Of a stretch of 64,000 nt of DNA, positions 44,425 to 61,342 are shown in pieces (positions within the stretch are counted from its first letter, which is position 1; every line of letters begins with the position of its first letter). The notes under the pieces were generated by a model. The model worked only from the letters and a program-made list of their open reading frames with translations. It ran no database searches and was not told where the DNA came from. Source of the stretch: Candidatus Micropelagos thuwalensis (lineage in GTDB: Bacteria > Pseudomonadota > Alphaproteobacteria > RS24); assembly GCF_000469155.1 (NCBI RefSeq), contig NZ_AWXE01000004.1, positions 806,001-870,000 on the forward strand, in the 5' to 3' direction. The position numbers and the translations under genes were made by a program.

Positions 44425-44453
44425 TTGTTACATGAGTGTAAAACTTCTGTAAT
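44425..44453 (+). promoter_or_regulatory. Pho box upstream of the lipoprotein-TBDT operon
   Basis: Three heptamers lie at an exact 11-base period: TTGTTAC (44425-44431), GTGTAAA (44436-44442) and CTGTAAT (44447-44453), with 4-base spacers. Each keeps the TGT core of the PhoB half-site CTGTCAT. An AT-rich -10-like stretch follows. Weaker in sequence than the gspD box but identical in layout. Confidence 0.6.
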
Positions 44454-44508
44454 GTTCTAAAGTTTTATTGAGCCCATTAATTGGTACAACATTCCATTGG
44501 AGGGCAAA

Positions 44509-47370
44509 ATGCCATCTTTCACTCTTTTTCGTAAATTTATGATGTCGGCCGTTCTAGGTCTGGCAGTTGCCGCATGTGATGGCGACAGTAATACCGAACT
44601 GGCCTCTCTTGGCACGGTCGGTCCTAACCCCGGCGCAGGTGGTACTACTTCTGGCGGTAGTTCTAGCGGTTCCAGTGGCGCAACTGCCAATTGTGAAGAC
44701 GGGTTAACTCAAGTCACACTAAGTAATGATGATGAAGTTTGCTCTATTTCTGGCACGATTGCTTCCGATCTGACACTCAGCGCCTCGAACATTTATATGT
44801 TGGACGGTAAAGTAGTCGTCGGTGAAAATGAAGCCAAAGATGGTACAGGCGGCACTAATGCTGTTCTGACCATTCCAGCCGGAACAAAAATTATCGGTAA
44901 GCAAACGCCGACCTCTGGTGTGACCTCTTACCTTGTTATTACCCGTGGTTCTCGTTTGGAAGCTACTGGTTCTGAAACACAACCAATTATCTTCACCTCC
45001 GAACAAGATCACCTGCGTGGTCGTACATCTCCAATTGCCCTTGAAGAATCTGAAACCGGTGAATGGGGCGGGATTGTGGTTAATGGTCTAGCAACTATTA
45101 ACAAAGGCACCGATTGTGAGCTTGCTGCCAACATTTGTGAGCGTGAAGGTGAAGGCGATAGCGGCCTTTACGGTGGTGACGATGACACGGATAACTCCGG
45201 TACATTCCGTTACATGCAGGTCCGTTACGCGGGGTTTGCGTTTACAGCAGATAATGAGCTGAATGGTATTGCCTTCCAGGGGGTTGGTTCCGGCACGACG
45301 ATTGAATATGTTCATGTTCATAATGGCGCGGATGATGGTATCGAATTCTTCGGTGGTACAGCTAACGCAAAATATATTGTTGTAACCGGTGCAGATGATG
45401 ACAGTATCGACTGGACAAATGGTTATCGCGGTTACATCCAATATGCGATCGTCATGCAAAACCCTAACCAAGCAAATACAGACCAAGGTATTGAGGCTGA
45501 CAGTAACTCTTCTGACAATGATGCTAAGCCGCGTGCTCGTCCTGTATTGTCAAACGTGACACTCGTTGGTGCGCGTCCTGCTGAGTCTGACATCGGGATT
45601 TTGCTTCGCGAAGGTACTGGTGCGGGCATCTATAACTCTGTTGTTTCCAATTTTGAAGACTGCTGGGATATTGATGGGACAGCAACTTACACAAACAGCA
45701 CAACAGCAACAGGCATTACTTTGAAATCTGTATTGTTTGATTGTGAGGACTCTTTCAAAGATGACACAGGTGCTGGCGAAGATGATACAGCCGCAGGAAC
45801 AGGTCTTGCTGCTAAATTCGCCGCCGGAGCCAATAATGTTGAATTGGCCAGCACATTGTCGAATGGTTTCATTAACGGTAATAATGAAAACTCTGTAACT
45901 TCCGTAAATGTTAACACTGAAGAAACACTGACATGGTTCGAATTTGCAACCTATATCGGTGCAGTGAAAAGCTCTTCAGCTACTGATAACTGGACCCTCA
46001 ACTGGACATATGGCATCAACCCGACGCCATCTTGCCCAACCGGAACAACAGCTATCGGTTCAACAGGTTGTGAGCTTTCAGGCGTTATTACAGATGACAT
46101 TAATTTAGTATCTGGTCTTAGTTACTTCTTGCGCGGCAAGGTTGTCGTTGGCGTCGATTGTGGCCCCGACAAAGATAACGAGCTCGCAACTTGTGACAAA
46201 GCTGAGCTGACAATTGATCCGGGTGTCTCTGTGTTTGCTCGCGAAAACCCGCTTTCTTATCTAGTTATCGCACGCGGTTCTAAATTGAACTCAAACGGTA
46301 CAGCATCCGCACCTGTAACCTTTACGGTTGAAGATGACTCTTCAAGAAACATTGACTCGGATACGGGTCTTTGGGGCGGACTAGTTATAAATGGTCGTGC
46401 GCCAATCAACAAAGGGACAAACTGTGAGGTTCTTACCAATCTGTGTGAGCGCGATGGTGAAGGCGATAGCGGTAAATACGGTGGTAACGATGCTGCCGAT
46501 GATAGTGGTCAAATTTACTACACAGTCGTCAAATATGCAGGTTATGCATTTACCGCAGATAACGAGCTGAACGGCATTGCCTTTGAAGGTGTCGGTTCCG
46601 GAACGGAAGTAGATTACGTCCAAGTCCATAACGGCGCTGATGACGGTATTGAGTTCTTCGGCGGCACGGTAAATGCCAAGCACCTTGTCGTGACCGGTGC
46701 TGATGATGACAGTATCGATTGGACGAACGGTTATGTTGGTAATATCCAATACGCAATCGTTGTTCAAAACGGTGCCAATCAGGGTAACACCGATCAGGGT
46801 ATTGAAGCGGACAGTAACTCATCCAACAATGATGCTCTGCCACGGGCCTTCCCATCCTTGTCAAACTTGACACTTGTCGGTTCCTTCCCAGCCGCAACTG
46901 GTGCAGAATCCGATATCGGTATCCTGTTACGAGAGGGTACGGGCGCTAATATATACAATACTGTAGTGGTTGGTTTCCAGGACGGTATCGACATTGACGA
47001 TGCAGCAACTTACGCAAATCGTGATAGTGCCACAACTGGTATCAATCTTAAGTCCGTGTTTATTGATGCAGATACGGCTTTCGGTGATGATACAGCTGCC
47101 GGTGAAGACGATACAGCCGCTGGCTTTGATCTCGGGGCTTGGTTTGCAGCTGAAGACGCCAATAATGACAGCACGACGGCTAACTCTTTAACCACTCTCA
47201 GCGGTGCGACGACTGGACAGAAGCGCTACATTAACGGTGCAACTGAAAACGGTATTACTGATACCGATCCAACAGCTCTCGGTACCTTCTTTGAAGATGC
47301 TGGTTTTGTTGGAGCCGTACAGAGTTCCGACAACTGGACGTCCGGTTGGACGGTCTGGTTGAACGACTAG
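44509..47370 (+). CDS. large acidic lipoprotein with two homologous beta-helix-like halves
   Basis: Lipoprotein of 953 residues. GGAGGG lies 4 bases ahead of the ATG. The signal peptide ends in lipobox AVAAC (Cys23); Asp follows at +2. A Gly/Ser/Thr linker leads to two homologous halves of about 436 residues each. The copies share GDGEGDSG-type residues, FTADNELNGIAF, VHNGADDGIEFFGG, VTGADDDSIDWTNGY, NTDQGIEADSNSS and DIGILLREGTGA. Short repeating strands rich in Asn, Gly and Asp suggest a right-handed beta-helix with bound calcium; that is inference. It is followed by a TonB-dependent receptor and gspC. It may be related in role to the phosphate-induced surface lipoprotein ElpS of Caulobacter, encoded beside a T2SS. 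Confidence 0.85.
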   Translation: MPSFTLFRKFMMSAVLGLAVAACDGDSNTELASLGTVGPNPGAGGTTSGGSSSGSSGATANCEDGLTQVTLSNDDEVCSISGTIASDLTLSASNIYMLDGKVVVGENEAKDGTGGTNAVLTIPAGTKIIGKQTPTSGVTSYLVITRGSRLEATGSETQPIIFTSEQDHLRGRTSPIALEESETGEWGGIVVNGLATINKGTDCELAANICEREGEGDSGLYGGDDDTDNSGTFRYMQVRYAGFAFTADNELNGIAFQGVGSGTTIEYVHVHNGADDGIEFFGGTANAKYIVVTGADDDSIDWTNGYRGYIQYAIVMQNPNQANTDQGIEADSNSSDNDAKPRARPVLSNVTLVGARPAESDIGILLREGTGAGIYNSVVSNFEDCWDIDGTATYTNSTTATGITLKSVLFDCEDSFKDDTGAGEDDTAAGTGLAAKFAAGANNVELASTLSNGFINGNNENSVTSVNVNTEETLTWFEFATYIGAVKSSSATDNWTLNWTYGINPTPSCPTGTTAIGSTGCELSGVITDDINLVSGLSYFLRGKVVVGVDCGPDKDNELATCDKAELTIDPGVSVFARENPLSYLVIARGSKLNSNGTASAPVTFTVEDDSSRNIDSDTGLWGGLVINGRAPINKGTNCEVLTNLCERDGEGDSGKYGGNDAADDSGQIYYTVVKYAGYAFTADNELNGIAFEGVGSGTEVDYVQVHNGADDGIEFFGGTVNAKHLVVTGADDDSIDWTNGYVGNIQYAIVVQNGANQGNTDQGIEADSNSSNNDALPRAFPSLSNLTLVGSFPAATGAESDIGILLREGTGANIYNTVVVGFQDGIDIDDAATYANRDSATTGINLKSVFIDADTAFGDDTAAGEDDTAAGFDLGAWFAAEDANNDSTTANSLTTLSGATTGQKRYINGATENGITDTDPTALGTFFEDAGFVGAVQSSDNWTSGWTVWLND
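44680..47365 (+). repeat. internal duplication in the lipoprotein gene
   Basis: The two halves align with an offset of about 1308 bases. For example GGTGAAGGCGATAGCGG occurs near 45147 and again near 46456. The central parts (about 45145-45620 and 46453-46940) are the most alike at protein level. Confidence 0.9.
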
Positions 47371-47383
47371 TCCTTACGGATAC

Positions 47384-47412
47384 TGGCCGTCGCAGTTTTG
47401 CTGCGGCGGCCA
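47384..47412 (+). promoter_or_regulatory. strong intercistronic hairpin
   Basis: TGGCCGTCGCAG pairs with CTGCGGCGGCCA over 12 bp with one G-U pair and a 5-base loop. It lies between the lipoprotein stop and the receptor start. No T run follows, so it is more likely an mRNA-stabilising or processing element than a terminator. Confidence 0.75.
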
Positions 47413-47453
47413 ACTCACTCTTCGGTTTATGCCTTCAAAATCAGGTTGCCAAA

Positions 47454-49991
47454 ATGACAAATTTTAAACAAATAAATTCCAGCTTAGCCGCTTTTGCTTT
47501 GCTGGTATCTTTTCCGGCTCTTACTAATGCTCAGGATATTGATGAAATTCAGGTCATAGGGGTTTTTATTCCCGATGAAAAACGTAATACCTCCGAGATT
47601 TCCAATGTTCTGGAAGCTGAGGACTTTTCACTCGCTGGAGATAGCGATATAGCTGTCGCCTTGACGCGCCTTCCGGGTCTTTCTCCTGATACGACGGGTA
47701 AATATGTCGTCGTCAGAGGTTTGGTAGAAAGATATACATCCACCCTTCTGAATGGCACACAATTGCCATCACCTGACCCTTTGAAAACAGCTGTTCCGCT
47801 TGATATTTTTCCGACAAGTATTATCGGAAATGTTCTTGTCCAGAAAACATATTCTGCTGAATATCCTGGCGCTTTTGGTGGCGGTGTTATTGACCTTAGG
47901 ACAAAAAGTGTTCCAGATGAACCGTTTTTAAACATAAGCTTATCAACGGGTTATAATTCAGAATCGACTTTAGAAGACGGACTTTCCTATTATGGCAGTG
48001 ATCGTGACTGGCTGACTTTTGATGATGGTCATAGAGAACTTCCAAGCATATTCAGAAATGATTATCAGCTTACCAGTCAGACACCTGCGTCTTTAGAGCA
48101 ATATGGTGAAGCAATCCCGAATATTTGGTCTATCGATTTTGATGAAAATCTTCCTGATGTTTCGGCCAAAATTTCTGGTGGTACTAACCGTGATACCGAT
48201 AATGGAAGAATTGGGGTAATTTTTGCCCTCGATTATACCAGTGAATATCGTAACCATTTTGGTGAGCAATTTTCTTATTCCGCAACTGATGCCGGTCTGG
48301 TTATTCAACAAAACTTTTCAGATAGTGTTTGTGTAGGCCAGGGTGTGAGTACCGAATATTGTGGTTTTAATACAACCTCATGGAACACAAATTTGAACGG
48401 ACTGTTGTCTGTTGGCTGGGAAATCGACGCGAATAGTGAGATTAAATATACAGGTGTTTTGCTTCGTTCGAGCCAGAAGCAGGTACAGATAAAAGGCGGG
48501 TCTACCGACTCCAATGATCTTGAAAATACGACACGTCTGGATTGGAAAGAGCGAGAAGTTATTTCTAATGCGGTATCGGGTGAACATACGTTTGATCTAA
48601 TTGATGCTGGCGAGACAATGCTTGATTGGTCGCTCAATATAACCAACGCTTCTCGGGATGTTCCGTTACGTCGTCGTTATAAATATTTCTACGATGACGG
48701 TCCTGGTGCTTTTCGTATCAGTACTCGGACAGATGGTAATCTAACCGAATATGGTTATATGGAAGATGAGTCCCGCGACTTTGTTGTTAATCTCACGCAG
48801 GCTACGAATCTGTTTGGTTTTGAAACGGACATTAAAGCCGGTGCGGCTTATAACGAAAAAGAGCGTTCTAGTTACTACCTGACTTACCACTATAATATGG
48901 GCCAGGTTACGAACCGTGATTTACTGTTCCGTGTTCCTGAAGTAATTTTTGGTTCAGTCAATATCGACCCAAATGGGATTTATTTACAGTCTTTAACACG
49001 TGCTGCCGACAGTTTCTCTGCTGATTTTAAGAATGACCAAGCCTATTGGCAAATCGACACGCGTTTGACAGATACTATCCGCATATCATCCGGTTATCGT
49101 TACGAAGACAGCGAGCAATTGGTGCGTGCGACTGATCGGTCTACGCTTACACCTATTCTCGTTACACAGCAGATAGAGTCTTTCCTCCCGTCAGCAACTC
49201 TTACTTGGGAATTTGCAGATAATATGCAATTGCGCTTTGGTTATTCGGAAACCATTAACCGTCCTGATAGCCGTGAGTTATCTCCTGCCCGTTTCATTCG
49301 TGAAGATGGCCGGACGGAAGAAGGTAATCCAAATTTACAATTTGCTGAAATCAAGAACTACGATATTCGTTATGAGTGGTACTTTGGTGATAGTGACTCT
49401 GTAACTGTTGGAGTGTTCTACAAGGACATCACAAATCCAATCGAGTACTCCATTGCTTCCATCGGCGGTGAGGGTCAGCTTGATACAGTGGCAAATGCCG
49501 ATGAAGCTGAGCTTTCAGGTATTGAAGTCGAGATAGAAAAGCAACTTGGTAAATATATGAATCGCGATTTATTCTTAAAAGCCAATACGACATATATTGA
49601 CTCAGAAGTGATGCGTAGCGCTGCCAATTTTGGTGAGGTAACAAATCTCGTGGGTCCTATGCAGGGCCAGTCTGAGATACTTGCCAATATTCAGTTTGGC
49701 TTTGAGAATATTGAGCATAACGAATTCTTTAACGTCGTGCTTAACTATGTCGATGAACGGGTTTATCGCTTGGGTACAAACTCGCGACCTGACCTAATTG
49801 AAAAACCGCCTTTCGAGCTGAATCTGGTTTACAGCCGTGATATTTATACAGCTTATGACCGCCCTGTTGGTTTGTCTGTAAAGGTCAAGAATCTTCTGGA
49901 CGAAGGGGCTGAGAGGCTTCAAGGTTCAGAGATAGCTGAATCCTATGATATTGGCACAACACTTTCTATCGGTCTGAATTACTCATTCTGA
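47454..49991 (+). CDS. TonB-dependent outer-membrane receptor
   Basis: Outer-membrane active transporter of 845 residues from the ATG at 47454. A signal peptide ends at TNAQ; the TonB box is DEIQVIG directly after it. The plug domain follows (LPGLSPDTTGKYVVVRGLVE, NGTQLPSPDPLKTAVPLDIFP, YPGAFGGGVIDLRTKSVPDE), then a beta-barrel ending in aromatic Phe (GLNYSF). It belongs to the CirA/Fe-type receptor superfamily, but the substrate need not be iron. It is encoded 83 bases after the acidic lipoprotein and 28 before gspC, so these three are one operon. I infer that the lipoprotein captures or helps deliver its ligand. Confidence 0.92.
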   Translation: MTNFKQINSSLAAFALLVSFPALTNAQDIDEIQVIGVFIPDEKRNTSEISNVLEAEDFSLAGDSDIAVALTRLPGLSPDTTGKYVVVRGLVERYTSTLLNGTQLPSPDPLKTAVPLDIFPTSIIGNVLVQKTYSAEYPGAFGGGVIDLRTKSVPDEPFLNISLSTGYNSESTLEDGLSYYGSDRDWLTFDDGHRELPSIFRNDYQLTSQTPASLEQYGEAIPNIWSIDFDENLPDVSAKISGGTNRDTDNGRIGVIFALDYTSEYRNHFGEQFSYSATDAGLVIQQNFSDSVCVGQGVSTEYCGFNTTSWNTNLNGLLSVGWEIDANSEIKYTGVLLRSSQKQVQIKGGSTDSNDLENTTRLDWKEREVISNAVSGEHTFDLIDAGETMLDWSLNITNASRDVPLRRRYKYFYDDGPGAFRISTRTDGNLTEYGYMEDESRDFVVNLTQATNLFGFETDIKAGAAYNEKERSSYYLTYHYNMGQVTNRDLLFRVPEVIFGSVNIDPNGIYLQSLTRAADSFSADFKNDQAYWQIDTRLTDTIRISSGYRYEDSEQLVRATDRSTLTPILVTQQIESFLPSATLTWEFADNMQLRFGYSETINRPDSRELSPARFIREDGRTEEGNPNLQFAEIKNYDIRYEWYFGDSDSVTVGVFYKDITNPIEYSIASIGGEGQLDTVANADEAELSGIEVEIEKQLGKYMNRDLFLKANTTYIDSEVMRSAANFGEVTNLVGPMQGQSEILANIQFGFENIEHNEFFNVVLNYVDERVYRLGTNSRPDLIEKPPFELNLVYSRDIYTAYDRPVGLSVKVKNLLDEGAERLQGSEIAESYDIGTTLSIGLNYSF

Positions 49992-50019
49992 TAGTTTTTA
50001 TGGAAATCTTTTGGATAAT

Positions 50020-50847
50020 ATGACCGCCGCTGAATCACCGTCGACAAAGTTTATCGTTAATGCGCTAGAAATTGTCCTTGTTGTTTCGGCGGCGTTTCTT
50101 TTGGCTCATTATGTCGCGACATTTCTGGACGACAAGAGCCGCCTTAAGATTTCTGCTTATCAAACACCCGTCGCTAAGGATATGCAGCAATTTTCGCAAT
50201 CCTATGACTTTAAAAATATGTTCTTCCCCGAATTGACTGCGGGTGAAGATAAAATTGTGAAGGTGCGTGCCGCAGAGTCTTCATTGGATATTAGATTATT
50301 TGGTCTTCGCGCAGACGGTAACGGCATGGGAAGCGTTATTTACAAAATAGGTGCTCAAGAACAGCAAAACGTTCGTGTCGGTGAACAAATGGCCGATAAG
50401 ATTAAATTACTTGCCGTTTTTAATGACCGTATAGAAATCAATAATAATGGGCGTTTTGAAACTGTAACATTCGGCAAGGTCAACTCACGTTTGCGTGGTT
50501 TGCTGGAGCCGACGCCGCCGCCCGAACAAAACGAAAATGTTAAAACAGACCAGGCACAACCGCCTTTTTTAACGACCAGCTATTTTAAACCTGTAAAAAA
50601 TGAGAATGGCGTGACGGCGGGTTTTATCCTTCAACCTGAATATGCAGCTATGCTGTCCGGCACGGCTTTTATGCTTGATGATGTCATTATGGAAATAAAT
50701 GGTGAACGTGTCCACAATTATGAAAATTTGTCCGAAGCTCTTGAAGGTATCCGTTTCGGGCAGAAAGTTAATATGACGATTGAGCGGCGCGGGAACAAAC
50801 AAAGCATGTCATTTATGGTCCCGGCACCAAGCACTGCAAACCGTTAA
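50020..50847 (+). CDS. gspC: type II secretion system protein GspC
   Basis: Inner-membrane clamp of the T2SS, 275 residues. One membrane helix near the N-terminus (ALEIVLVVSAAFLLAHYVAT), a homology region that binds secretin (LDIRLFGLRADGNGMGSVIY to VRVGEQMADKIKLLAVF), a Pro-rich linker, and a C-terminal PDZ-like domain (LDDVIMEINGERVHNYENL). The ATG at 50020 is favoured over a TTG three codons upstream. It is co-transcribed with the receptor, and separated from gspD by a Pho box. Confidence 0.88.
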   Translation: MTAAESPSTKFIVNALEIVLVVSAAFLLAHYVATFLDDKSRLKISAYQTPVAKDMQQFSQSYDFKNMFFPELTAGEDKIVKVRAAESSLDIRLFGLRADGNGMGSVIYKIGAQEQQNVRVGEQMADKIKLLAVFNDRIEINNNGRFETVTFGKVNSRLRGLLEPTPPPEQNENVKTDQAQPPFLTTSYFKPVKNENGVTAGFILQPEYAAMLSGTAFMLDDVIMEINGERVHNYENLSEALEGIRFGQKVNMTIERRGNKQSMSFMVPAPSTANR

Positions 50848-50893
50848 AATCATATTGGTACGTTAATTTCCACCATTCACAATAAATGTTAAT

Positions 50894-50922
50894 CTGTCAC
50901 ATGATTGTCACAAAACTGTCAT
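50894..50922 (+). promoter_or_regulatory. Pho box upstream of gspD
   Basis: CTGTCAC (50894-50900), TTGTCAC (50905-50911) and CTGTCAT (50916-50922) repeat at an exact 11-base period with 4-base spacers ATGA and AAAA. This is a near-perfect three-half-site PhoB site. A -10-like TATTTT starts at 50930, 8 bases after the last half-site, as in PhoB-activated promoters that lack a -35. Confidence 0.85.
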
Positions 50923-51044
50923 GAACAAGTATTTTACTCTCCATCGTCAGATCTTTTATCGAATTCAGATCTTAATAATTAATAGTGGCCATGTGTCACC
51001 AGGTTGTTTCTAGAAATTACAATAAGTAAAAGGATTTGGTACTC

Positions 51045-52976
51045 ATGAAAATTTTATTCGTTTTGTTGTTTACACTTATATCGTTTACCGCAAACGCACA
51101 AATTTCAGGGGGGCTGAATTACAAGGACGCGGATTTGCGAGAATTCATCGAAGATGTCGCCCTCGCCACACGTAAAACATTCATTATCGACCCAGGTGTC
51201 GCCGGCAAGGTTAATCTTGTTTCTAGTAAAAATGTTGACGCCGAATTACTGTTTGAAATTTTTCTTTCAGTGCTGAAAGTCAATGGGTATGCGGCTACAT
51301 CCACGGTTGATGGTGGTTATAAAATAATTCCTGTAAATATTGCTTTTAAAGATAGCGTTGAGGAGGACGCGAAGGGTGATCGTATTGCCACCAAAGTCTT
51401 TTTTCTTCGTTATGCCGATCCGGTAAAAGTTCTGGGGGTTGTGCAACAATATGTTAATCCTAAGGGATTAAGTTTTGCGCGTGAGGGATTGCAAGCCATT
51501 GTCGTATCGGATTATGCGCATAATCTTACACGCATTCAGTCAATAATCGCCGAAATTGATGTCGATAATTCGGTTGTTAAAATCGTTAAGTTGAAAAACA
51601 CATCTGCCCGTGAAATGGCGGATGTAGCCCGTCAGATAGCCAGCGAGAATTCTAATAATCAATCAAGTTATCAATCAGTCAAAGCCATACCTATAATTGC
51701 AAGTAACTCTTTAATATTGAAGGGTCAATCACAGACAGTGGAGAGATATTTTCCTATCATAGAAAAGCTCGATCTTGAAAATGCATCAAACGGTTCGCTA
51801 AAAGTTGTGAAACTGAAATATGCAAATTCTGAAACCTTGTTGCCGACTTTACAGGCGCTTTCAGACAGCATTGCCGCACCTGATGTAGGGGTTAATAAAT
51901 TTTCTGCAGAAAAAATTATAATCTCAAATTACGTAGAGGCTAATGCAATTATCATTAAGGCAAGTGCTGATGCCCAAAAGAAAATTATTGATTTAATTTA
52001 CTCTCTCGATACACCGCGCGCGCAGGTGCTTGTCGAAGCAATCATTGTCGAAGTTTCCAATAATGCGGCCAAGTCACTTGGCGTGCAATATGTTCTCGCC
52101 GGGGGCGAAGACAGTAAAGTACCTTTTACAGTTTCTAATTACAGCAATACATCACCTAATATTCTCGCTGCGACTGGAGCGTTGGTGCTGGATGATTCGT
52201 CAGACAGTAGCAGCTCTGCTACGGTGGAAAATCTGTCGGGCGTTCTGCGTTCTGCCGCTATTGATAGCATGCTTGGCATTAACGGGCTGGCGGTTGGTGC
52301 CGCGGGGACGCGAAGTGATGGCGGCATTTTCGGGGTTATTCTGAATGCATTATCCGGAGACGTGAAAAGTAATATCCTCTCCACACCGTCGATTATGACT
52401 TTGGATAATGAGCCTGCTAAATTCATTGTTGGTCAGGAAATTCCCATCACGACGGGTGAGGCGCTTGGGTCTTCCAATGCTAATCCATTCCGTACGATAG
52501 ACCGTAAAAATGTCGGGGTACAGTTGGAGGTTGTTCCTCAAATTAATGAAGGCGATGAAATCCGCCTTAAGATTAGGCAGGAGGTTTCCTCTGTCTCCGG
52601 TCCTATAGCAACGACCTCGACTGAGTTGATAACAAATAAACGAGAAATGGAAACCACCGTCAGGGTTGGCGATGGAGAAATAATTGTGCTTGGTGGTCTT
52701 ATCCAGCAGGACGAGACCATATCAGTCGACAAAATACCTCTGCTCGGAAGTATTCCTGTACTTGGTAAAGCTTTCAGTTCAGAGCAAAAATCAAAATCTA
52801 ACACTAACCTTATGGTTTTCCTGCGCCCAACAATCGTAAGAACATCAGAAGATGCTCGTGCAGTGACGGAACTTAAATATGGTTATATTTCGGACAGCCA
52901 GAAAAAAGCTAAAACAAAACTCTCCCTGGATGACATGATGCAAGATGTCGTGGGCGTCACCTCGGAACAGGAGTAA
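51045..52976 (+). CDS. gspD: type II secretion secretin GspD
   Basis: Outer-membrane channel of the T2SS, 643 residues. Signal peptide ends at TANAQ. N0-N3 periplasmic domains follow, with repeats such as VVKIVKLKNTSAREMADVAR and LKVVKLKYANSETLLPTLQ. The secretin core has VLVEAIIVEVSNNAAKSLG, NILSTPSIMTLDNEPAKF and VGQEIPITTG. It is the first gene of the second T2SS unit, directly behind the Pho box. No GspS-like pilotin site is evident at the C-terminus. Confidence 0.95.
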   Translation: MKILFVLLFTLISFTANAQISGGLNYKDADLREFIEDVALATRKTFIIDPGVAGKVNLVSSKNVDAELLFEIFLSVLKVNGYAATSTVDGGYKIIPVNIAFKDSVEEDAKGDRIATKVFFLRYADPVKVLGVVQQYVNPKGLSFAREGLQAIVVSDYAHNLTRIQSIIAEIDVDNSVVKIVKLKNTSAREMADVARQIASENSNNQSSYQSVKAIPIIASNSLILKGQSQTVERYFPIIEKLDLENASNGSLKVVKLKYANSETLLPTLQALSDSIAAPDVGVNKFSAEKIIISNYVEANAIIIKASADAQKKIIDLIYSLDTPRAQVLVEAIIVEVSNNAAKSLGVQYVLAGGEDSKVPFTVSNYSNTSPNILAATGALVLDDSSDSSSSATVENLSGVLRSAAIDSMLGINGLAVGAAGTRSDGGIFGVILNALSGDVKSNILSTPSIMTLDNEPAKFIVGQEIPITTGEALGSSNANPFRTIDRKNVGVQLEVVPQINEGDEIRLKIRQEVSSVSGPIATTSTELITNKREMETTVRVGDGEIIVLGGLIQQDETISVDKIPLLGSIPVLGKAFSSEQKSKSNTNLMVFLRPTIVRTSEDARAVTELKYGYISDSQKKAKTKLSLDDMMQDVVGVTSEQE

Positions 52977-52984
52977 CCCTCCAC

Positions 52985-54505
52985 ATGGTAAGATCGTCAC
53001 AGATTATCTCCAATGCAGAGGCAGAACGTTTTTCTGAGATATTACCTTATGCTTTCGCCAGGGATTATGGGTTGGCTCTATCATCTGAAAAAAAAGGTTT
53101 TTGCCTGAACCTGTCACAAACCGTTGACCGGGGAATGATTGCCGAAGTGTTTCGGGCTTATCGTGACGTCAATATAGTTAAGACACTTTCCGATGAAGAT
53201 TTTGAAAGCCTACTTTCTACAATGTATGCGAGCCGCGGTATTGACGCCGAGGTTGATAGCTTGTCTGAGGCAAACGGGGACGACCTGGATAGTGTCTTGC
53301 AGGGTGTTGAGCGATCTGCTGACTTACTTGCTGGGGATGATGATGCGCCAGTTATCCGGCTTCTCAATAGCTTGTTTAGTGAAGCTGTGCGTGCCGGGGC
53401 GTCGGATATTCATCTTGAACCATTTGAGGACAAAGTTGCTGTCCGATTGCGCATAGACGGGCTTTTGACAGAAATCGCAGCATTATCAGCCAAATTGGCT
53501 CCCTATCTTGTTTCGCGTGTAAAAGTGATGGCACGGTTAGATATTGCGGAAAAACGGCTTCCGCAAGATGGTCGCCTGTCTTTGACTCTTGGCGGCAAAA
53601 GCTATGATGTGCGGGTTTCTACGTTACCAATCCGATATGGTGAGCGCGTGGTAATGCGTCTTCTCGATAAGGATCAGGCATTTTTGAGTCTTAGTGATCT
53701 CGGCATGGCGGATAAAATATGTAAACGTTTTGAGGGCGCTTTATCAGAACCAAACGGAATTTTGTTGGTAACCGGACCGACTGGGGCGGGTAAAACTACA
53801 ACTCTCTATGCTGCCTTGGGACTTTTGAACGACCAATCGCGCAACATAATGACTGTTGAAGATCCTATTGAATATGCTTTGAAAGGGGTCAGCCAGACTC
53901 AGGTGAATAACAAAGTCGGCATGACATTTTCAAGTGGTTTGCGGTCTATTCTCCGTCAGGATCCGGATGTGGTGATGGTGGGAGAGATACGAGATGCCGA
54001 GACAGCCGAGATTGCCGTTCAAGCCAGTTTGACAGGGCATTTGGTTTTGTCCACCGTCCATACCAATAGTGCGGCGGCTGCCATTACACGGCTAGTCGAT
54101 ATGGGTGTTGAGCCGTTTTTACTTGCCTCATCTGTAAAAGCTGTGCTTGCACAGCGACTGGTGCGGCAATTGTGTGGATCATGTAAGCAACCTTATCAAG
54201 CTTCCAAAGACACTGCGGCAAAGCTTGGACTGAAAAGCCGTCAGCTTAAGTTATATCGACCGACTGGCTGTCTTGACTGCCAAAATACAGGTTATCGCGG
54301 CCGTGTCGGAATATATGAGCTCATTATGGTGAACGACGATATTCGTCGCATGATTCAGAATGGTGCCGGTGAATTGGATATCGAGGCACAGGCTATTGCC
54401 GAAGGTTTGCCTGTTCTTGCCGATAGCGGACGTGAGCTTGTATTGTCGGGTGAAACTACGCTTGAGGAAGTATTGCGGGTCTCTCGGCTCAAGGGGTCGG
54501 AGTAA
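52985..54505 (+). CDS. gspE: type II secretion ATPase GspE
   Basis: Cytoplasmic hexameric ATPase of 506 residues that powers pseudopilus assembly. Walker A is GPTGAGKTTT, the Asp box is VEDPIEYAL, Walker B is DVVMVGEIRDAETAE, and the His box is TGHLVLSTVHTNSAA. A tetracysteine zinc site follows (LCGSCKQPY and CLDCQNTGYRGR). Its stop overlaps the gspF start in TAATG. Confidence 0.97.
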   Translation: MVRSSQIISNAEAERFSEILPYAFARDYGLALSSEKKGFCLNLSQTVDRGMIAEVFRAYRDVNIVKTLSDEDFESLLSTMYASRGIDAEVDSLSEANGDDLDSVLQGVERSADLLAGDDDAPVIRLLNSLFSEAVRAGASDIHLEPFEDKVAVRLRIDGLLTEIAALSAKLAPYLVSRVKVMARLDIAEKRLPQDGRLSLTLGGKSYDVRVSTLPIRYGERVVMRLLDKDQAFLSLSDLGMADKICKRFEGALSEPNGILLVTGPTGAGKTTTLYAALGLLNDQSRNIMTVEDPIEYALKGVSQTQVNNKVGMTFSSGLRSILRQDPDVVMVGEIRDAETAEIAVQASLTGHLVLSTVHTNSAAAAITRLVDMGVEPFLLASSVKAVLAQRLVRQLCGSCKQPYQASKDTAAKLGLKSRQLKLYRPTGCLDCQNTGYRGRVGIYELIMVNDDIRRMIQNGAGELDIEAQAIAEGLPVLADSGRELVLSGETTLEEVLRVSRLKGSE

Positions 54506-55776
54506 TGCCTGCATATCAATATGAGGCGCTGGATGCGCAAGGGAAAAAGAAAAAAGGTGTGATCGCTGCTGATAGTTTGCGTGATGCAAGAAAACGCCTG
54601 CAATCGAAAACATTATTTCCGGTCAGTCTAACTGAGGGCGGGCGCGCAGAATCTTCTGATAGGTTGGCGTCAACGTCACTAACCGCACGTCTATCTTCAC
54701 TTCTGTCTTCTCTGAGTTCAAATTCAACACGAAGCGCAAAAATATCGTCACGCGATCTTGCCATGGTAACGCGTCAAATGGCGACTATGGTTGGAGCAGG
54801 CTTGCCAGTGGATGAAACTTTGCAAGCTATTGCAGCGCAAAGTGAGAAAACGTTAATACGCGATGTATTGACCAATATCCGGAGTCGTGTTGTCGAAGGG
54901 GAAAAACTCTCTGAAGCGATGAAAGTGGAAGCAACATCTTTTGATGATTTATACCGGGCGATGATTGCCGCCGGAGAAGCGTCTGGTGATTTGGACGGCA
55001 TTCTGGCGCGGATTTCTGAATATTGCGACAAATCTGAAGATGTAAGAACCAAGGTGCAAGCGGCCATGGTTTACCCAGCGGTTTTGAGTGTAATCGCTAC
55101 CGGTGTTCTTGTACTTCTCATGACATTTGTAGTGCCTAAAATTGCCGTTCAATTTGAGTCCTTTAATGCTGAATTGCCCGCTTTGACTCGCTTTGTTATT
55201 GGCTTGTCAGACATCCTGACGCATCTTGGCCCTGCTTTTTTGCTGATTATCATTGCGGCTGGTATTGGTTATACTGCCGCCATGAGACGCAAGCCTTTAC
55301 GCCTGAAGGTGCATGGCTTCTGGCTCCAACTCCCTTTGATCGGCAGATTATTGCGTGTCGTCGCGAGCGCACGGTTCGCCCGTACATTGGGGACGCTGGT
55401 TGAAGGCGGTAGTCCTGTGCCTGAGGCTATATTGGCTGCTCGTGAAACCCAGTCCAACCAAGTTGTCCGCGACGCTGTTGATGGTATTTATAAAGATGTC
55501 CGTGAAGGTAGCGCTCTCGCTAATGCATTCCGTAAAAGTGGGATTTTTGCGCCTTTACTGGTTTATATGGTGGCGATGGGCGAAAAAAGTGGCTCACTAC
55601 CTCATATGCTAACAAAGACAGCCGACTATCTTGAAGGTGAGTTTGACGGGGTCACGCGCACCCTAATGAATCTTCTTGAACCAGCTATTGTTGTGATTAT
55701 GGGCCTTATGGTTGGCGTGATTGTCATGTCTATTATGTTACCGATTATGCGTCTAAACAGTCTTGTTTTATCTTAG
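54505..55776 (+). CDS. gspF: type II secretion inner-membrane protein GspF
   Basis: Platform protein of 423 residues with two repeated cytoplasmic domains and three membrane helices. Typical segments are MPAYQYEALDAQGKKKKGVI, TRQMATMVGAGLPVDETLQA, KVQAAMVYPAVLSVIATGVL, and the terminal helix AIVVIMGLMVGVIVMSIMLP. Translationally coupled to gspE. Confidence 0.96.
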   Translation: MPAYQYEALDAQGKKKKGVIAADSLRDARKRLQSKTLFPVSLTEGGRAESSDRLASTSLTARLSSLLSSLSSNSTRSAKISSRDLAMVTRQMATMVGAGLPVDETLQAIAAQSEKTLIRDVLTNIRSRVVEGEKLSEAMKVEATSFDDLYRAMIAAGEASGDLDGILARISEYCDKSEDVRTKVQAAMVYPAVLSVIATGVLVLLMTFVVPKIAVQFESFNAELPALTRFVIGLSDILTHLGPAFLLIIIAAGIGYTAAMRRKPLRLKVHGFWLQLPLIGRLLRVVASARFARTLGTLVEGGSPVPEAILAARETQSNQVVRDAVDGIYKDVREGSALANAFRKSGIFAPLLVYMVAMGEKSGSLPHMLTKTADYLEGEFDGVTRTLMNLLEPAIVVIMGLMVGVIVMSIMLPIMRLNSLVLS

Positions 55777-55787
55777 GGAAAGAAGAA

Positions 55788-56237
55788 ATGACCATACATT
55801 GCCACTCTCAACCAAATTTGAAAATACCCAGGGCTAATGGATTTTCCTTTATCGAACTTATGGTTGCCGTTGTGATTATGGGGCTTTTGACATCCGTTGT
55901 GGTGTTGAATGTGCTGCCGAGCCAAAATCGCGCTATGGTCGAAAAAGCCCGCAGTGATGTGGCTCTGCTATCGCAGGCGATAGAAATGTATCGTATGGAG
56001 ACCCTTCGATATCCAGCTATGGAAGATGGCTTGGATGTTCTGACTCGTGCCCCTGCTGGTGATACATTTCGCCAGGAAGGGTTTGTCAAATCCCTCCCCA
56101 AAGATCCTTGGAATAATCCCTATCAATATCTTGTTCCTGGAGAATTCGGACCTTATGATGTTTTCTCTTTTGGTGCTGACGGACGACTAGGTGGCACTGG
56201 ATTGGACGCAGATATTGGCAACTGGCTGGACGAGTAA
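55788..56237 (+). CDS. gspG: type II secretion major pseudopilin GspG
   Basis: Main pseudopilus subunit, 149 residues. Prepilin peptidase would cut after Gly18 before FSFIELMVAVVIMGLL, with the conserved Glu at +5. The calcium-binding C-terminal part is present (LPKDPWNNPYQYLVPGEFG, VFSFGADGRLGGTGLDADIG). The leader is longer than usual. Confidence 0.96.
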   Translation: MTIHCHSQPNLKIPRANGFSFIELMVAVVIMGLLTSVVVLNVLPSQNRAMVEKARSDVALLSQAIEMYRMETLRYPAMEDGLDVLTRAPAGDTFRQEGFVKSLPKDPWNNPYQYLVPGEFGPYDVFSFGADGRLGGTGLDADIGNWLDE

Positions 56238-56242
56238 TCATT

Positions 56243-56617
56243 ATGGCTGGCACTCCGACATCCGCGCAGGGCTTTTCTCTGCTCGAATTGCTGGTCGCCG
56301 TATCCATTCTGGCTCTTGCTGCTATCCCGATACTTGTCAATCAAAGCCAAAGCGTGCGTATGGCGTCACATATGCAGGAAAAAGTGTTGGCACATACAGT
56401 GGCTGAAAACATCATCGTATTGCTTTCGATTAAATCTGGCGTCAGTGCTGGTATTTTGATGGGCGAACAGCGGCAAGGTGGCGCGGAATTTTTATGGCAG
56501 GCTGATATTTCTCGAACAACAGATGGTGGCCCTCTCATGATGTCAGTATCGGTGTCCCGTCCTGGTAGTACGACAAAGCTGGCGCATCTGACGGGCTTTA
56601 GAGAGGCAGGACGATAA
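56243..56617 (+). CDS. gspI: type II secretion minor pseudopilin GspI
   Basis: Minor pseudopilin of 124 residues. Cleavage is expected after Gly10 before FSLLELLVAVSILALA, with Glu at +5. The segment AENIIVLL-like residues (VLAHTVAENIIVLLSIKSG) and length fit GspI rather than GspH. It follows gspG directly, so gspH is missing from its usual place. Its stop overlaps the gspJ start by one base. Confidence 0.85.
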   Translation: MAGTPTSAQGFSLLELLVAVSILALAAIPILVNQSQSVRMASHMQEKVLAHTVAENIIVLLSIKSGVSAGILMGEQRQGGAEFLWQADISRTTDGGPLMMSVSVSRPGSTTKLAHLTGFREAGR

Positions 56618-57294
56618 TGTCGGAAAAAGGCTTCAGTCTTGTCGAGACGCTTTTGGCTATGTTTCTGTTATCTCTTGTGTCGATGACAGCTCTGGTCATG
56701 TTGAATGGTTATTTTCGTGGTTCGGCGGCGATTGGAACGGCAAGTTCACGCCTTTCACAAATGATGTCAGCGCGTGAACAACTTGCAGATGATTTGCTCC
56801 ATGCTGTAATCCGCCCTTCTGGTGAGGCTGAGATGCCGGTTATATTTTATGGTGATATACGCGATACTTGTTTTTTACGTCTGACGCGTCGGGCGGGATC
56901 AACAGCGATTTATGATCCGCGCGGGACGGATATCGAGTCTGTTCGCTATTGTTTGGAAAATGGGAGGTTGATACGTCAAGCTTATACCCGCCCTGATGCA
57001 GTGCGCGATACCCCTAAGCGGCACTACAGTCTTATTGACAATTTAGAGACGGTGGAAATTAGATTTCTTGTAAATAATGCTTGGGTGCGCGAGTGGCGAA
57101 TTACAACGCAAAATGTTTATAGCCAAATAGATATTGGACTACTTAACCCCGAAGGGGTCAACGGCATAAGCACGGATGATTTGCCTAGTCTTGTAGAAGT
57201 GAGTTGGGTGGTAACAGATGATGGCATCTCGCGGGACTATGTGCATTATTTCCGTACCGGTCAGAGTCCCGCAAGAAGTCCCGGGGGTGCATGA
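56617..57294 (+). CDS. gspJ: type II secretion minor pseudopilin GspJ
   Basis: Minor pseudopilin of 225 residues with cleavage after Gly5 before FSLVETLLAMFLLSLVSM, Glu at +5. The mature domain includes SRLSQMMSAREQLADDLLHA and a beta region with YCLENGRLIRQAY. GspJ sits with GspI and GspK at the pseudopilus tip. gspK overlaps its end by four bases. Confidence 0.9.
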   Translation: MSEKGFSLVETLLAMFLLSLVSMTALVMLNGYFRGSAAIGTASSRLSQMMSAREQLADDLLHAVIRPSGEAEMPVIFYGDIRDTCFLRLTRRAGSTAIYDPRGTDIESVRYCLENGRLIRQAYTRPDAVRDTPKRHYSLIDNLETVEIRFLVNNAWVREWRITTQNVYSQIDIGLLNPEGVNGISTDDLPSLVEVSWVVTDDGISRDYVHYFRTGQSPARSPGGA

Positions 57295-58322
57295 TGGTCG
57301 GTAGAAATAAACTTTTTTCTGTCGCTTCGGTATCTCGGTGCCAGGGTAGGCAAACGGGTGCAGCTCTGATTATTGTGTTGGGTTTGGTGTCTGTTATGAG
57401 TGTGACGGCGGTTGTGGCCTTTGATATGTTTAGTATGTTTGTTCGCAAAACCACTAACAGTCAGATATTGTCGCAAGCGCGTGAATATGCGCTGGCCGGA
57501 GAAATGCTCGGTGCTAAACGTGCCGGAACTTTCATCAAAGCTAATGAGTTATTTGGCATTAACGATGCTGTCAATGACGCTGAGAACCGTCTGAAAGTTG
57601 ATATGCCGATTGATGGTGGACGCATTAAAGGTGCGTTAAAAGAAAGTACAAATTGCTTTAATCTCGCGACACTGGTTCGTAAAATGCCGGATGGATCATT
57701 TGTGGCTAATGTGACGGCCATGCAGCAATTTTCTAACCTGTTACAGGCCATGGGTGTTGGCAAAACAGAAGCGACATCTTTGACGGCTGCTCTAACGGAC
57801 TGGCAAGATAGTGACACAAGGCCTCTGCCTATGGGGGCCGAGAGTGCCACCTATAATCAACTTGATCCACCTTACCGGACATCCGATAGTCGACTGGTGA
57901 GTATTAAGGACTTGCATTTAATCCGTGACTTCTCGGTTGATCTTGTCGAAGCGTTGACCCCATTGGTTTGCATTGACCCGCTGGATACGCAAACCGTGCT
58001 TAATCTTAATACCCTGCAACCGCATCACTCCTTACTGGTTAAGGCATTGCTCGGTGATGTGATTACCATGCAACAGGCATCGCAATTGATAGCTGCCCGC
58101 CCGCGGGGAGGCTATGACCATAATCGTCGGTTTTGGCAAATGAAGATGTTTGAGGATAAGGCAATCCCGGAGACAGTGCGCGGGCAATTTATCACCACGC
58201 CGAGACGTTTTCTTCTGACTGTCGATGTGTATTTGAACTCGGCGCTTACACGGTTGAACTCGGCGCTACACTTTAACCCCGATGGGTCATATATTATTAC
58301 CTCTCGCTACTTTGGGGCATAG
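57291..58322 (+). CDS. gspK: type II secretion minor pseudopilin GspK
   Basis: Large tip pseudopilin of 343 residues. The cleavage site is Gly before AALIIVLGLVSVMSV, without Glu at +5, as is typical of GspK. The alpha-domain inserted in the pilin fold contains LTDWQDSDTRPLPMGAES and YRTSDSRLVSIKDLHLIR, the usual GspK signature with a calcium-binding region. Two ATG codons (57291 and 57294) could start it. Confidence 0.93.
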   Translation: MMVGRNKLFSVASVSRCQGRQTGAALIIVLGLVSVMSVTAVVAFDMFSMFVRKTTNSQILSQAREYALAGEMLGAKRAGTFIKANELFGINDAVNDAENRLKVDMPIDGGRIKGALKESTNCFNLATLVRKMPDGSFVANVTAMQQFSNLLQAMGVGKTEATSLTAALTDWQDSDTRPLPMGAESATYNQLDPPYRTSDSRLVSIKDLHLIRDFSVDLVEALTPLVCIDPLDTQTVLNLNTLQPHHSLLVKALLGDVITMQQASQLIAARPRGGYDHNRRFWQMKMFEDKAIPETVRGQFITTPRRFLLTVDVYLNSALTRLNSALHFNPDGSYIITSRYFGA

Positions 58323-58341
58323 GAATTCAGGAACGCAATTT

Positions 58342-59385
58342 ATGGCGCGTGCACAAATTGAATTTATTAAAATAGCCGAAAACCTAACCGCTAATTTGGG
58401 TAGTAATGCGGTAGCGGTCATAGCCGGGGACACTGTGAGCAGTTTCCGTGTGACCTTGCCAGCACTGTCTGCGAGAAAATTGAGAAAGACGCTTCCATTT
58501 TTGGTTTCGGATCTGCTGGTGACGGATATAGAGGATATGCATCTGTGTTTGGTCGAGACGGAAACACCAAATGACTACCTCTTATTGGCTTGTGCCAAAA
58601 CTGTTATGCGCGAGATGCAGGATAAGGCACTGGCAGAGGATTTAACCCTGAAGGCCGCATGGCCCGACTATATGTTGATTGCGCCACCCGATGAGGGTGT
58701 TATCCTGGAGCATGAAGGTGGTGATATCTTATGTCGCCGTGCAGACGGCACAGGCTTTCGTATGCCGAAAAAAATCGCAGAAGCGGCTTTAAGTGATGTG
58801 CCAAAGGATGCCCGTAAAGATGGTAACCGCGGCAACTTACCAGAAGAAGGGCAGGGCTTGGCAACCGGTATTTTTGGCCCACAATTTCCGTTTATGAGTT
58901 ACCTGCCTATTTTTAAACGCCCGGCGATTTTGGCGGCATCAATCTTATGCATTTGGGTCATTGGTACATTTGCACAAATTGGTCGACACCAGGCGACGCG
59001 CGCGGATTATGAAGATGCCTCAATACAGTTGTTCAAACAGGCTTTCCCCGATGTAACCCGTGTTGTTAATGTCGAAGCTCAGCTTATGAACAAAATGATG
59101 TCGTCCAATACTTTGCCAGCACGAAACTTTTTATATCTGACGGATACGCTTTTTCAGGCAATTGACGATGTTGAAAATATCGGAATAGACAGGCTGAATT
59201 TTGACCGGACGGATATACGCCCTTTGCAGGTCACCCTACGTGCGCAGAATTTTTCGACTCTGGAGCTTGCCAGACAAAAGCTCGTTGATGCCGGTTTTGC
59301 CGTTATCGAAGGAAAAAGTAGTCAAACTGTGAGTGGCGTGACTGGTGATTTCGCCTTGTCCCGCACAGCAGGAATTCGCCAATGA
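58342..59385 (+). CDS. gspL: type II secretion protein GspL
   Basis: Inner-membrane protein of 347 residues that recruits GspE. A cytoplasmic actin-like part (LPALSARKLRKTLPFLVSDL) leads to one membrane helix (ILAASILCIWVIGTFAQIG) and a periplasmic ferredoxin-like domain. The ATG at 58342 has AGGA 9 bases ahead; a longer frame reaching into gspK is rejected. It overlaps gspM by four bases. Confidence 0.87.
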   Translation: MARAQIEFIKIAENLTANLGSNAVAVIAGDTVSSFRVTLPALSARKLRKTLPFLVSDLLVTDIEDMHLCLVETETPNDYLLLACAKTVMREMQDKALAEDLTLKAAWPDYMLIAPPDEGVILEHEGGDILCRRADGTGFRMPKKIAEAALSDVPKDARKDGNRGNLPEEGQGLATGIFGPQFPFMSYLPIFKRPAILAASILCIWVIGTFAQIGRHQATRADYEDASIQLFKQAFPDVTRVVNVEAQLMNKMMSSNTLPARNFLYLTDTLFQAIDDVENIGIDRLNFDRTDIRPLQVTLRAQNFSTLELARQKLVDAGFAVIEGKSSQTVSGVTGDFALSRTAGIRQ

Positions 59386-59891
59386 GGGATACGCTGAACA
59401 ATATGTTGAGGAGTGCGAAGGCAACTTTTGCGGGTTTTTGGCGATCTGTGACACTGCGAGAACAAATCGCTTTTTTGATCGCTGGTACAGCCATCATTCT
59501 ACTCTTGCTTTATGTTGGCTTGATAAGACCACTGGATATGAAACTGGAAAAAAGTCGCGCTTCTCTGTCTATAGAAAAAGCACGTTTTGAACGTATTGCC
59601 GAGCTTCTTTCGCGTGCCGGTAATCAACCAGATGTAACATCTATCAGCGATAAGCCTTTAAGGGCAACGCTAACGGAAACAGCGAAACGCATCAATATCG
59701 GACTAAGTATCATTCAGCCCGGTGAGGGTGGTAGTGTGATGTTGCGAATTAATAAGACCAGCAGTGCAGCCCTTATGCGTTGGCTTTCGACGCTTCAATC
59801 CGAGCATAATCTTCAGGCGGACGAGGTTTTGATACAGAAAAATATGGATGAGAAAAGCCTGAATGTACGCGCTGTTTTTGGCCGAGAATGA
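59382..59891 (+). CDS. gspM: type II secretion protein GspM
   Basis: Small inner-membrane protein of 169 residues that binds GspL. The N-terminal helix reads QIAFLIAGTAIILLLLYVGL, preceded by a basic cytoplasmic tail. The C-terminal ferredoxin-like part ends in KSLNVRAVFGRE. Assignment rests on helix position, length and order after gspL. Confidence 0.85.
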   Translation: MRDTLNNMLRSAKATFAGFWRSVTLREQIAFLIAGTAIILLLLYVGLIRPLDMKLEKSRASLSIEKARFERIAELLSRAGNQPDVTSISDKPLRATLTETAKRINIGLSIIQPGEGGSVMLRINKTSSAALMRWLSTLQSEHNLQADEVLIQKNMDEKSLNVRAVFGRE

Positions 59892-59910
59892 GACTATAGG
59901 AGCCTGCTGA

Positions 59911-60771
59911 ATGAAAGATATTATTAAGCTGGCTTCGGCTTTATTGAGGCATTTCTCTGCTGTCACCGGTCATATTGTACCTCTTATACGCGGCCTGTCT
60001 GAAACGCGTTTAAGCCATGCCAGCCTGGGTAAACTGTTTGCTCTTGTTTTTATTATAAACCTGGTCATTCAATTACCGGCGTCACTTGGGGTGCGCATGC
60101 TCCAACCACAGGGTCTAAATGCGCAGAGCATATCCGGCAGTCTTTGGGACATTCGGCTCAAACAGTTTGTCTATGCGGGGCGTCAATGGTCGTTCGGACG
60201 TTTCGAAATAGCTGTTTTGCCTTTATTAATTGGGCGCTTTGGCGGCGATTTTTCTTTGTCGGGGACGGACGGTGTTTTTAAAGGGTCTATAAAACATGCT
60301 GAGTCGGACAAGGTAATTTTTCACAGCCTGGATGGAAAATTCAGCTCATATTTTCAGTCTACTGAAATCAATGGCACGACCATTCAAGTGCCAGTCAATG
60401 TGGCCTTTGAAGGACGTAAGTTGGATTTGGACAAAATCGGCACATGTTACGACGGGTCGGCGATGCTTACCCTATCTACAGACAATGCAGTTGTAGGCAG
60501 TTTGCTGCCTGCCAGTCTGTTATGGAACGGAAAAGCCAGGTGTACGGATGGGGTAATACGTTTTGACCTGACTGCTGAAACTTCTCAGACCACAAAGATT
60601 GACAATATCCGTATAGCTGGCAGGCTAGAAGCGATGCGCTTAAAGGCAGACATTATCGTGAACTTGTCCATGTCAAGCCAGAATGATGACGCTATTTTGA
60701 ATGTTTTGCGTTTCTCCGGTTTTGAGGCGCGACCGGATGGGTGGGCGTTACAGTTAGATGGAGGGATTTAA
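59911..60771 (+). CDS. gspN: type II secretion protein GspN
   Basis: Inner-membrane-anchored periplasmic protein of 286 residues. One N-terminal helix (KLFALVFIINLVIQLPASLG) is followed by a beta-rich domain beginning LNAQSISGSLWDIRLKQF, as in GspN proteins. The role in the T2SS is unclear and the gene is missing from many systems. AGGAGCC precedes the ATG. Confidence 0.83.
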   Translation: MKDIIKLASALLRHFSAVTGHIVPLIRGLSETRLSHASLGKLFALVFIINLVIQLPASLGVRMLQPQGLNAQSISGSLWDIRLKQFVYAGRQWSFGRFEIAVLPLLIGRFGGDFSLSGTDGVFKGSIKHAESDKVIFHSLDGKFSSYFQSTEINGTTIQVPVNVAFEGRKLDLDKIGTCYDGSAMLTLSTDNAVVGSLLPASLLWNGKARCTDGVIRFDLTAETSQTTKIDNIRIAGRLEAMRLKADIIVNLSMSSQNDDAILNVLRFSGFEARPDGWALQLDGGI

Positions 60772-60772
60772 G

Positions 60773-61342
60773 ATGAACAGACTATCAAAGTCCTTAACAA
60801 TGTTTGTATCGCTTAGTTTGGCGAGTTTCTTGAGTGGGTGTGCGAATTTGCTTGTTCCCGTTGTCATTGCGACCACACCCATGGTTCTCCCATCACCCGA
60901 AAATGCCGCGAAGAAAAATACTTCCGCCGGTCAATCGGATAGTGAAGTAGTGAAAACGATTCCTGAAGGTCAGCTTGTATTCGGTAGTTTGCCACCGCAA
61001 CTGCTTCCAGAGGGCCAGTGCGGGTTGTTTCTGTGGGGCGCAGGGGAAGGCCGCCCTTTATATTTTTTCCAAAACACCGCTGAGGCGCGGGCGATTATTC
61101 CTGTTAATGGAAAAAATATCATTATCCACCGAAACGCCGCCGCTAGACAAATTGTTGAGGGGTTTTTTGCCCGTCAAAGTTTCATTGTCGGTGACATTAA
61201 AATCTCAGTTAACTTGCAACCTGATCAGGGACGAAACGTTCTCAAAGGCATTGTCATTCCTTCGGGAGTTATAAATGTCACTGAAAATTCAGGCCGTCAG
61301 TCAGTCTTGTCTGTTGTTGGGCTATTTAACTGTAAGCTATAG
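60773..61342 (+). CDS. putative lipoprotein at the end of the T2SS operon
   Basis: Protein of 189 residues with signal peptide and lipobox SFLSGC; Ala follows at +2, predicting Lol transport to the outer membrane. GGAGGG precedes the ATG and the gspN stop is one base before it, so it is co-transcribed. The mature part has no recognised domain; two Cys remain (GQCGLFLWG and LFNCKL) and could form a disulfide. It could be a pilotin for GspD or another accessory part. Family not recognised. Confidence 0.72.
   Translation: MNRLSKSLTMFVSLSLASFLSGCANLLVPVVIATTPMVLPSPENAAKKNTSAGQSDSEVVKTIPEGQLVFGSLPPQLLPEGQCGLFLWGAGEGRPLYFFQNTAEARAIIPVNGKNIIIHRNAAARQIVEGFFARQSFIVGDIKISVNLQPDQGRNVLKGIVIPSGVINVTENSGRQSVLSVVGLFNCKL

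Follow-up and report, generated by a model that had tools for sequence, protein, structure and literature searches.

A locus in the analyzed DNA of Candidatus Micropelagos thuwalensis (a 64,000-nt stretch, NZ_AWXE01000004.1 positions 806,001-870,000, hereafter the window, in whose positions coordinates are given) belongs to the ElpS type, probably serves this marine alphaproteobacterium of the PS1 clade in phosphate starvation, and is of a kind that has already been described. The gene of a 953-residue lipoprotein is followed by that of a TonB-dependent receptor, by gspC, and then by gspD, E, F, G, I, J, K, L, M, and N (Table 1). A sequence-only reading had proposed this gene content and order, which was confirmed at the same place by open reading frames and by Pfam and NCBIfam matches. 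The locus is probably raised by PhoB, with the surface lipoprotein and the receptor capturing and importing a phosphorus compound and the T2SS secreting other proteins.

Table 1. Features of the ElpS-type locus (window positions).
Feature	Position	Strand	Evidence or remark
Pho box upstream of lipoprotein, three half-sites, 11-nt spacing, TTGTTACatgaGTGTAAAacttCTGTAAT	44425-44453	+	2 mismatches to pattern
ElpS-family lipoprotein, 953 aa, two tandem beta-helix domains (predicted)	44509-47370	+	lipobox ...LAVAAC, Asp at +2
ElpS domain 1 (about residues 59-505)	44683-46023	+	AlphaFold2 right-handed parallel beta-helix
ElpS domain 2	46024-47367	+	57% identical to domain 1
RNA hairpin (stem of 13 bp, lacking a U-tract) between lipoprotein stop codon and receptor gene	47384-47412	+	position conserved in relatives
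TonB-dependent receptor	47454-49991	+	Plug E=4e-9, barrel E=3e-27; best NCBIfam TIGR01782, below cut-off
gspC	50020-50847	+	PF11356 E=1.3e-11
Pho box upstream of gspD, three half-sites, 11-nt spacing, CTGTCACatgaTTGTCACaaaaCTGTCAT	50894-50922	+	perfect pattern match
gspD secretin	51045-52976	+	TIGR02517 486.9 bits, cut-off 351
gspE ATPase	52985-54505	+	TIGR02533 654.9 bits
gspF	54505-55776	+	TIGR02120 453.9 bits
gspG major pseudopilin	55788-56237	+	TIGR01710 143 bits
gspI minor pseudopilin	56243-56617	+	TIGR01707 60.6 bits
gspJ minor pseudopilin	56617-57294	+	PF11612
gspK	57291-58322	+	PF21687/PF03934
gspL	58282-59385	+	PF12693/PF05134
gspM	59382-59891	+	PF04612
gspN, weak match	59911-60771	+	PF01203 E=6e-5, below cut-off
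Small putative lipoprotein	60758-61342	+	homologues close related T2SS clusters: L115 (51% identical), L090

The receptor gene starts 83 nt past the lipoprotein gene and gspC 28 nt past the receptor gene, a spacing from which it is plausible that the three form one transcription unit. From gspD onward, gspE to gspG and gspI to gspN follow without large gaps. The T2SS core (secretin, ATPase, GspF, and major pseudopilin) scored above the NCBIfam cut-offs throughout. No gspH was found in the tightly packed gsp cluster, which leaves no room for one, and a prepilin peptidase gene (PF06750/PF01478) is found next to a second secretin system at a distance of about 0.49 Mb. The cluster therefore falls short of a full C-to-O set, with gspN weak as well, and is classed as a T2SS because the core machinery is present. 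The earlier description of the T2SS as complete-looking is thus fair but inexact, the system being nearly complete at this locus. The distant system (L116, C4:359000-375000 of the same genome) is of the secretin type and has GspE-like, GspF-like, and prepilin peptidase genes; it probably supplies the prepilin peptidase to the T2SS. The small putative lipoprotein at the end of the cluster matched no family in Pfam or NCBIfam.

The precedent for this locus comes from Caulobacter, where cc0170 (elpS) and cc0171, encoding a TonB-dependent receptor, lie immediately upstream of gspC; a similar order was reported in Xanthomonas campestris, Sphingomonas alaskensis, and Hyphomonas neptunium (PMC2996285). 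A 2024 study counts the T2SS of Caulobacter among the members of the PhoB regulon (PMC11208175). Since these papers report them, the triad and its link to phosphate were already known, and a literature search on related phosphate-receptor work found nothing closer than the ElpS locus. The ElpS relationship had been suggested from the sequence, and it is supported by family homology and by the same gene order as cc0170-cc0171-gspC. Homology was found by profile and BLAST searches, with 41% identity over the domain to a Brevundimonas protein that has the same gene order, the comparison being with that protein and not with CC0170 itself. By contrast, the suggestion that a receptor had been added to the set here is wrong, as cc0171 already stands between elpS and gspC (PMC2996285). 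The Caulobacter locus and the one described here share gene order, lipobox, and lipoprotein family, and probably the phosphate-starvation link. Unlike Caulobacter ElpS (about 50 kDa), the present lipoprotein is of double length with two domains; moreover, this locus has a second Pho box between gspC and gspD, no gspH, and a non-adjacent prepilin peptidase gene.

To collect relatives, named genomes were scanned once with an ElpS-domain alignment. More than 500 were found, of which the best-scoring 80, a non-random sample, were kept. Going by record titles, these best 80 of more than 500 span Alpha-, Gamma-, and Deltaproteobacteria, Acidobacteria, a Gemmatimonadales MAG, and a Planctomycetota MAG, the nearest being Alpha proteobacterium IMCC14465 of the PS1 clade. 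Two domains are present in 35 and three in 4 of the same 80, so the double-domain lipoprotein is not unusual. The three-domain proteins (L042, L043, L045, and L052) are all gammaproteobacterial. Among the alphaproteobacterial loci of this best-scoring set that have enough sequence, the receptor gene is next downstream in 19 of 19 and a T2SS follows in 16 of 18, and the co-occurrence predicted by the sequence-only reading is therefore conserved. In the other groups of the best 80, the receptor is next downstream in 30 of 50 loci and upstream-adjacent in 6 more; a linked T2SS was found in 2 of 46, both SAR86. In a Sandarakinorhabdus MAG (L090) the T2SS genes lie upstream, not downstream, of the lipoprotein-receptor pair.

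Within the family, the lipoprotein is confined to this genus (4 of 28 genomes). G022 and G410, two genomes that belong to a different genus (loci L114 and L115), carry the T2SS with neither lipoprotein nor receptor upstream of gspC, and no convincing Pho boxes were found there. Because both cluster with this genus in a GspDEF tree (support 1.0), loss of the pair is the simplest account, with some doubt left on its absence by the incompleteness of the MAGs (90-92%). Recent horizontal gain of the T2SS is not favored by the same tree. Retention of the T2SS without the pair in these two relatives indicates that the T2SS has other uses. This also bears on a reading in which lipoprotein, receptor, and T2SS are neighbors through shared regulation only and act separately in phosphate starvation. 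Such a reading would suit G022 and G410 and the 44 of 46 non-alphaproteobacterial loci of the best 80 without a linked T2SS. It would further suit Caulobacter, in which the receptor is reported to be constitutive and elpS to be induced (PMC2996285). However, the adjacency of the receptor, directly downstream in all 19 alphaproteobacterial and 30 of the 50 other loci, exceeds what shared regulation alone would require, and this explanation appears rather unlikely.

The probable linkage to PhoB, which had been proposed from two boxes of three half-sites, is supported by conservation of the boxes and by a comparable box in the pstS promoter of this genome, an internal positive control; the first box is weak genome-wide. 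Across the 1.96-Mb genome, the gspD box alone fits the pattern used without a mismatch; this pattern was chosen after the sites had been seen and is therefore partly tuned. The reversed-pattern control of the genome scan gave 2 hits, 1 per strand, so the lipoprotein box, with its mismatches, is unexceptional genome-wide. When the 157-nt leader of the lipoprotein box was shuffled, an equally good score arose with P=0.00075. Congeners retain both boxes, the first of them with a degenerate middle half-site; in IMCC14465 the gspD box is kept, as are half-sites 1 and 3 of the lipoprotein box, with changed flanks. Upstream of the relatives, the best two-half-site score reached p<=0.05 in 44 of the best-scoring 80 of more than 500 (expected 4), a figure that is indicative as its controls were taken at random from these loci rather than from matched intergenic stretches. 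Promoter and terminator consensus scans gave no excess over shuffles. The genome also encodes a phoR, pstSCAB, phoU, and phoB cluster (in L122, C4:794500-806100), which ends about 3 kb before the window and lies about 48 kb upstream of the lipoprotein gene. Judged from the sites, the locus is probably under PhoB control in Candidatus Micropelagos thuwalensis. Despite the full Pho regulatory set, and in a further difference from Caulobacter, no match to PhoX, PhoD, or PhoA was found in this genome, so the link to alkaline phosphatase that was put forward for ElpS in Caulobacter may not hold here.

The lipoprotein is confidently predicted to adopt a right-handed parallel beta-helix. The AlphaFold2 model of domain 1, made with 67 aligned domains, has a mean pLDDT of 93.8, and the two-domain model a pLDDT of 88.2 and a pTM of 0.73. 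With VIA-align, domain 1 resembles beta-helix proteins at Z of about 19-23 over roughly 250-305 residues, its neighbors being tailspikes, NosD, alginate epimerases and lyases, pectate lyases, and polygalacturonases. The fold match came from VIA-align, as Foldseek alone gave weak matches (E 0.004 or worse). PDB sequence searches returned no solved relative of the lipoprotein or of the receptor. PF13229 was matched weakly by 4 of the 67 family members, with no other covering family in Pfam, and an NCBIfam scan of the members gave stray single matches only. Gly, Asp, and Glu account for most of the invariant residues. Among them, the acidic D217, D218, E221, D239, D240, and D243 are invariant in the 67 domains. 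They belong to the motifs DDGxE and DDSxD, whose location on consecutive turns suggests that a metal or a ligand may be bound. These six residues, together with the epimerases, lyases, and polygalacturonases among the neighbors, could also point to a beta-helix enzyme (lyase, epimerase, or glycosidase-like) that releases a substrate carrying phosphate, the product of which is imported by the receptor. Nevertheless, a fold in common shows no function, and NosD and phage tailspikes are neighbors as well. No invariant His or Lys is present in the domains, nor was any catalytic Pfam family matched, and an enzymatic role is unlikely.

The Klebsiella pullulanase PulA is a lipoprotein with Asp at +2. 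Here, too, a lipoprotein with Asp at this position is encoded near a T2SS. Asp right after the lipobox Cys (CDGDSN, 44509-44600) also occurs in IMCC14465, but it is uncommon in the relatives, where Gly or Ser mostly stands instead. In enterobacteria, Asp at this position is an inner-membrane retention signal (rule cited in PMC2996285). From this it might be supposed that the lipoprotein is a direct T2SS client in the manner of pullulanase, with Asp at +2 avoiding Lol sorting and the T2SS carrying out transport to the surface. The presence of this Asp in the genus (L018, CDGDSNT), the genetic linkage of lipoprotein and T2SS, and the toxicity of ElpS overproduction without the T2SS in Caulobacter (PMC2996285) would all agree with such a role. 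However, Caulobacter ElpS is surface-exposed without the T2SS, so that, in contrast to PulA, its surface export is T2SS-independent; the T2SS is needed only for release, probably via a secreted protease (PMC2996285). Moreover, Gly or Ser stands at +2 in many T2SS-linked relatives, and gammaproteobacterial relatives have the lipoprotein-receptor pair without a linked T2SS. Direct transport by the T2SS is thus improbable, and the earlier proposal that the T2SS secretes the capture protein needs correcting accordingly.

The preferred reading, in which lipoprotein and receptor act together in capture and import, has parallels elsewhere. As in SusD-SusC glycan uptake of Bacteroidetes, the gene of a surface lipoprotein lies beside that of a TonB-dependent receptor. 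Unlike that system, the lipoprotein here is modeled as a beta-helix and the receptor has Plug and barrel only; searches of Pfam and NCBIfam found neither a SusD-type lipoprotein nor a SusC-type receptor at the locus, which places it outside the SusC/SusD families. The expectation of a lipoprotein fold unrelated to SusD is in line with both results. A second parallel is BtuG, a lipoprotein whose fold differs from the ElpS-type beta-helix. In Bacteroides vitamin B12 uptake, this non-SusD surface lipoprotein has been shown to form a complex with the TonB-dependent transporter BtuB (PMC10404256), and the lipoprotein-transporter principle therefore has a precedent. BtuG-BtuB has another ligand and belongs to another phylum, and the complex shown there would be a predicted one here.

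A further feature of the pair is the strong hairpin between the two genes, inside their putative shared transcription unit. The 131-nt region that contains it folds with z=-4.1, and a strong hairpin occurs at the same place in 17 of 19 T2SS-linked loci with unrelated sequences. Values of z<-3 were obtained for 36 of 43 gaps from the lipoprotein gene to the next gene and for 33 of 145 control gaps (Fisher P=6e-13), a P value that overstates independence because the loci are mutually related and the controls, similar-length gaps of the same loci, rest on crude ORF calls. An ordinary intrinsic terminator is not favored, as a U-tract-like run (at least 5 T in the 8 bases after the stem) follows in only 2 of 20 alphaproteobacterial copies. 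The hairpin likely shields the lipoprotein mRNA or lowers read-through, either of which would fit the finding that cc0171 does not follow elpS induction (PMC2996285). The published accounts consulted make no mention of it.

Taken together, the following course of events can be proposed. Low phosphate would activate PhoB, which would bind both Pho boxes and raise lipoprotein-receptor-gspC and gspD-N, control of the T2SS having been reported in Caulobacter. The two-domain beta-helix lipoprotein would be anchored at the cell surface, where it and the adjacent receptor may capture a phosphorus-containing molecule and pass it to import, and the hairpin would probably keep the lipoprotein transcript in excess over that of the receptor. 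The T2SS would export other proteins, among them whatever later cuts the lipoprotein free, as was shown in outline in Caulobacter. This model is somewhat favored: Caulobacter-like gene order, conserved Pho boxes, the pho/pst set, the beta-helix model, and hairpin enrichment argue for it, whereas the lack of cc0171 co-induction with elpS in Caulobacter, the continued production of ElpS there after deletion of cc0171 (PMC2996285), the lack of a PhoX, PhoD, or PhoA match, and the retention signal at +2 argue against it. A broader proposal is more tentative. Across several phyla, ElpS-family beta-helix lipoproteins and adjacent receptors might assemble into a SusCD-like complex for capture and import under PhoB control, with a conserved mRNA hairpin setting the ratio of lipoprotein to receptor and the T2SS as a mostly alphaproteobacterial add-on.

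The ElpS literature consulted assigns no fold or ligand to ElpS. With the triad itself known, the chief gains are the predicted beta-helix fold, the wide occurrence of the lipoprotein-receptor pair, and the hairpin conserved between its two genes. The IMCC14465 group has kept the ElpS system in a genome of about 2 Mb. The beta-helix, the receptor pairing in many lineages, and the hairpin provide a testable model for the surface gathering of scarce phosphorus.
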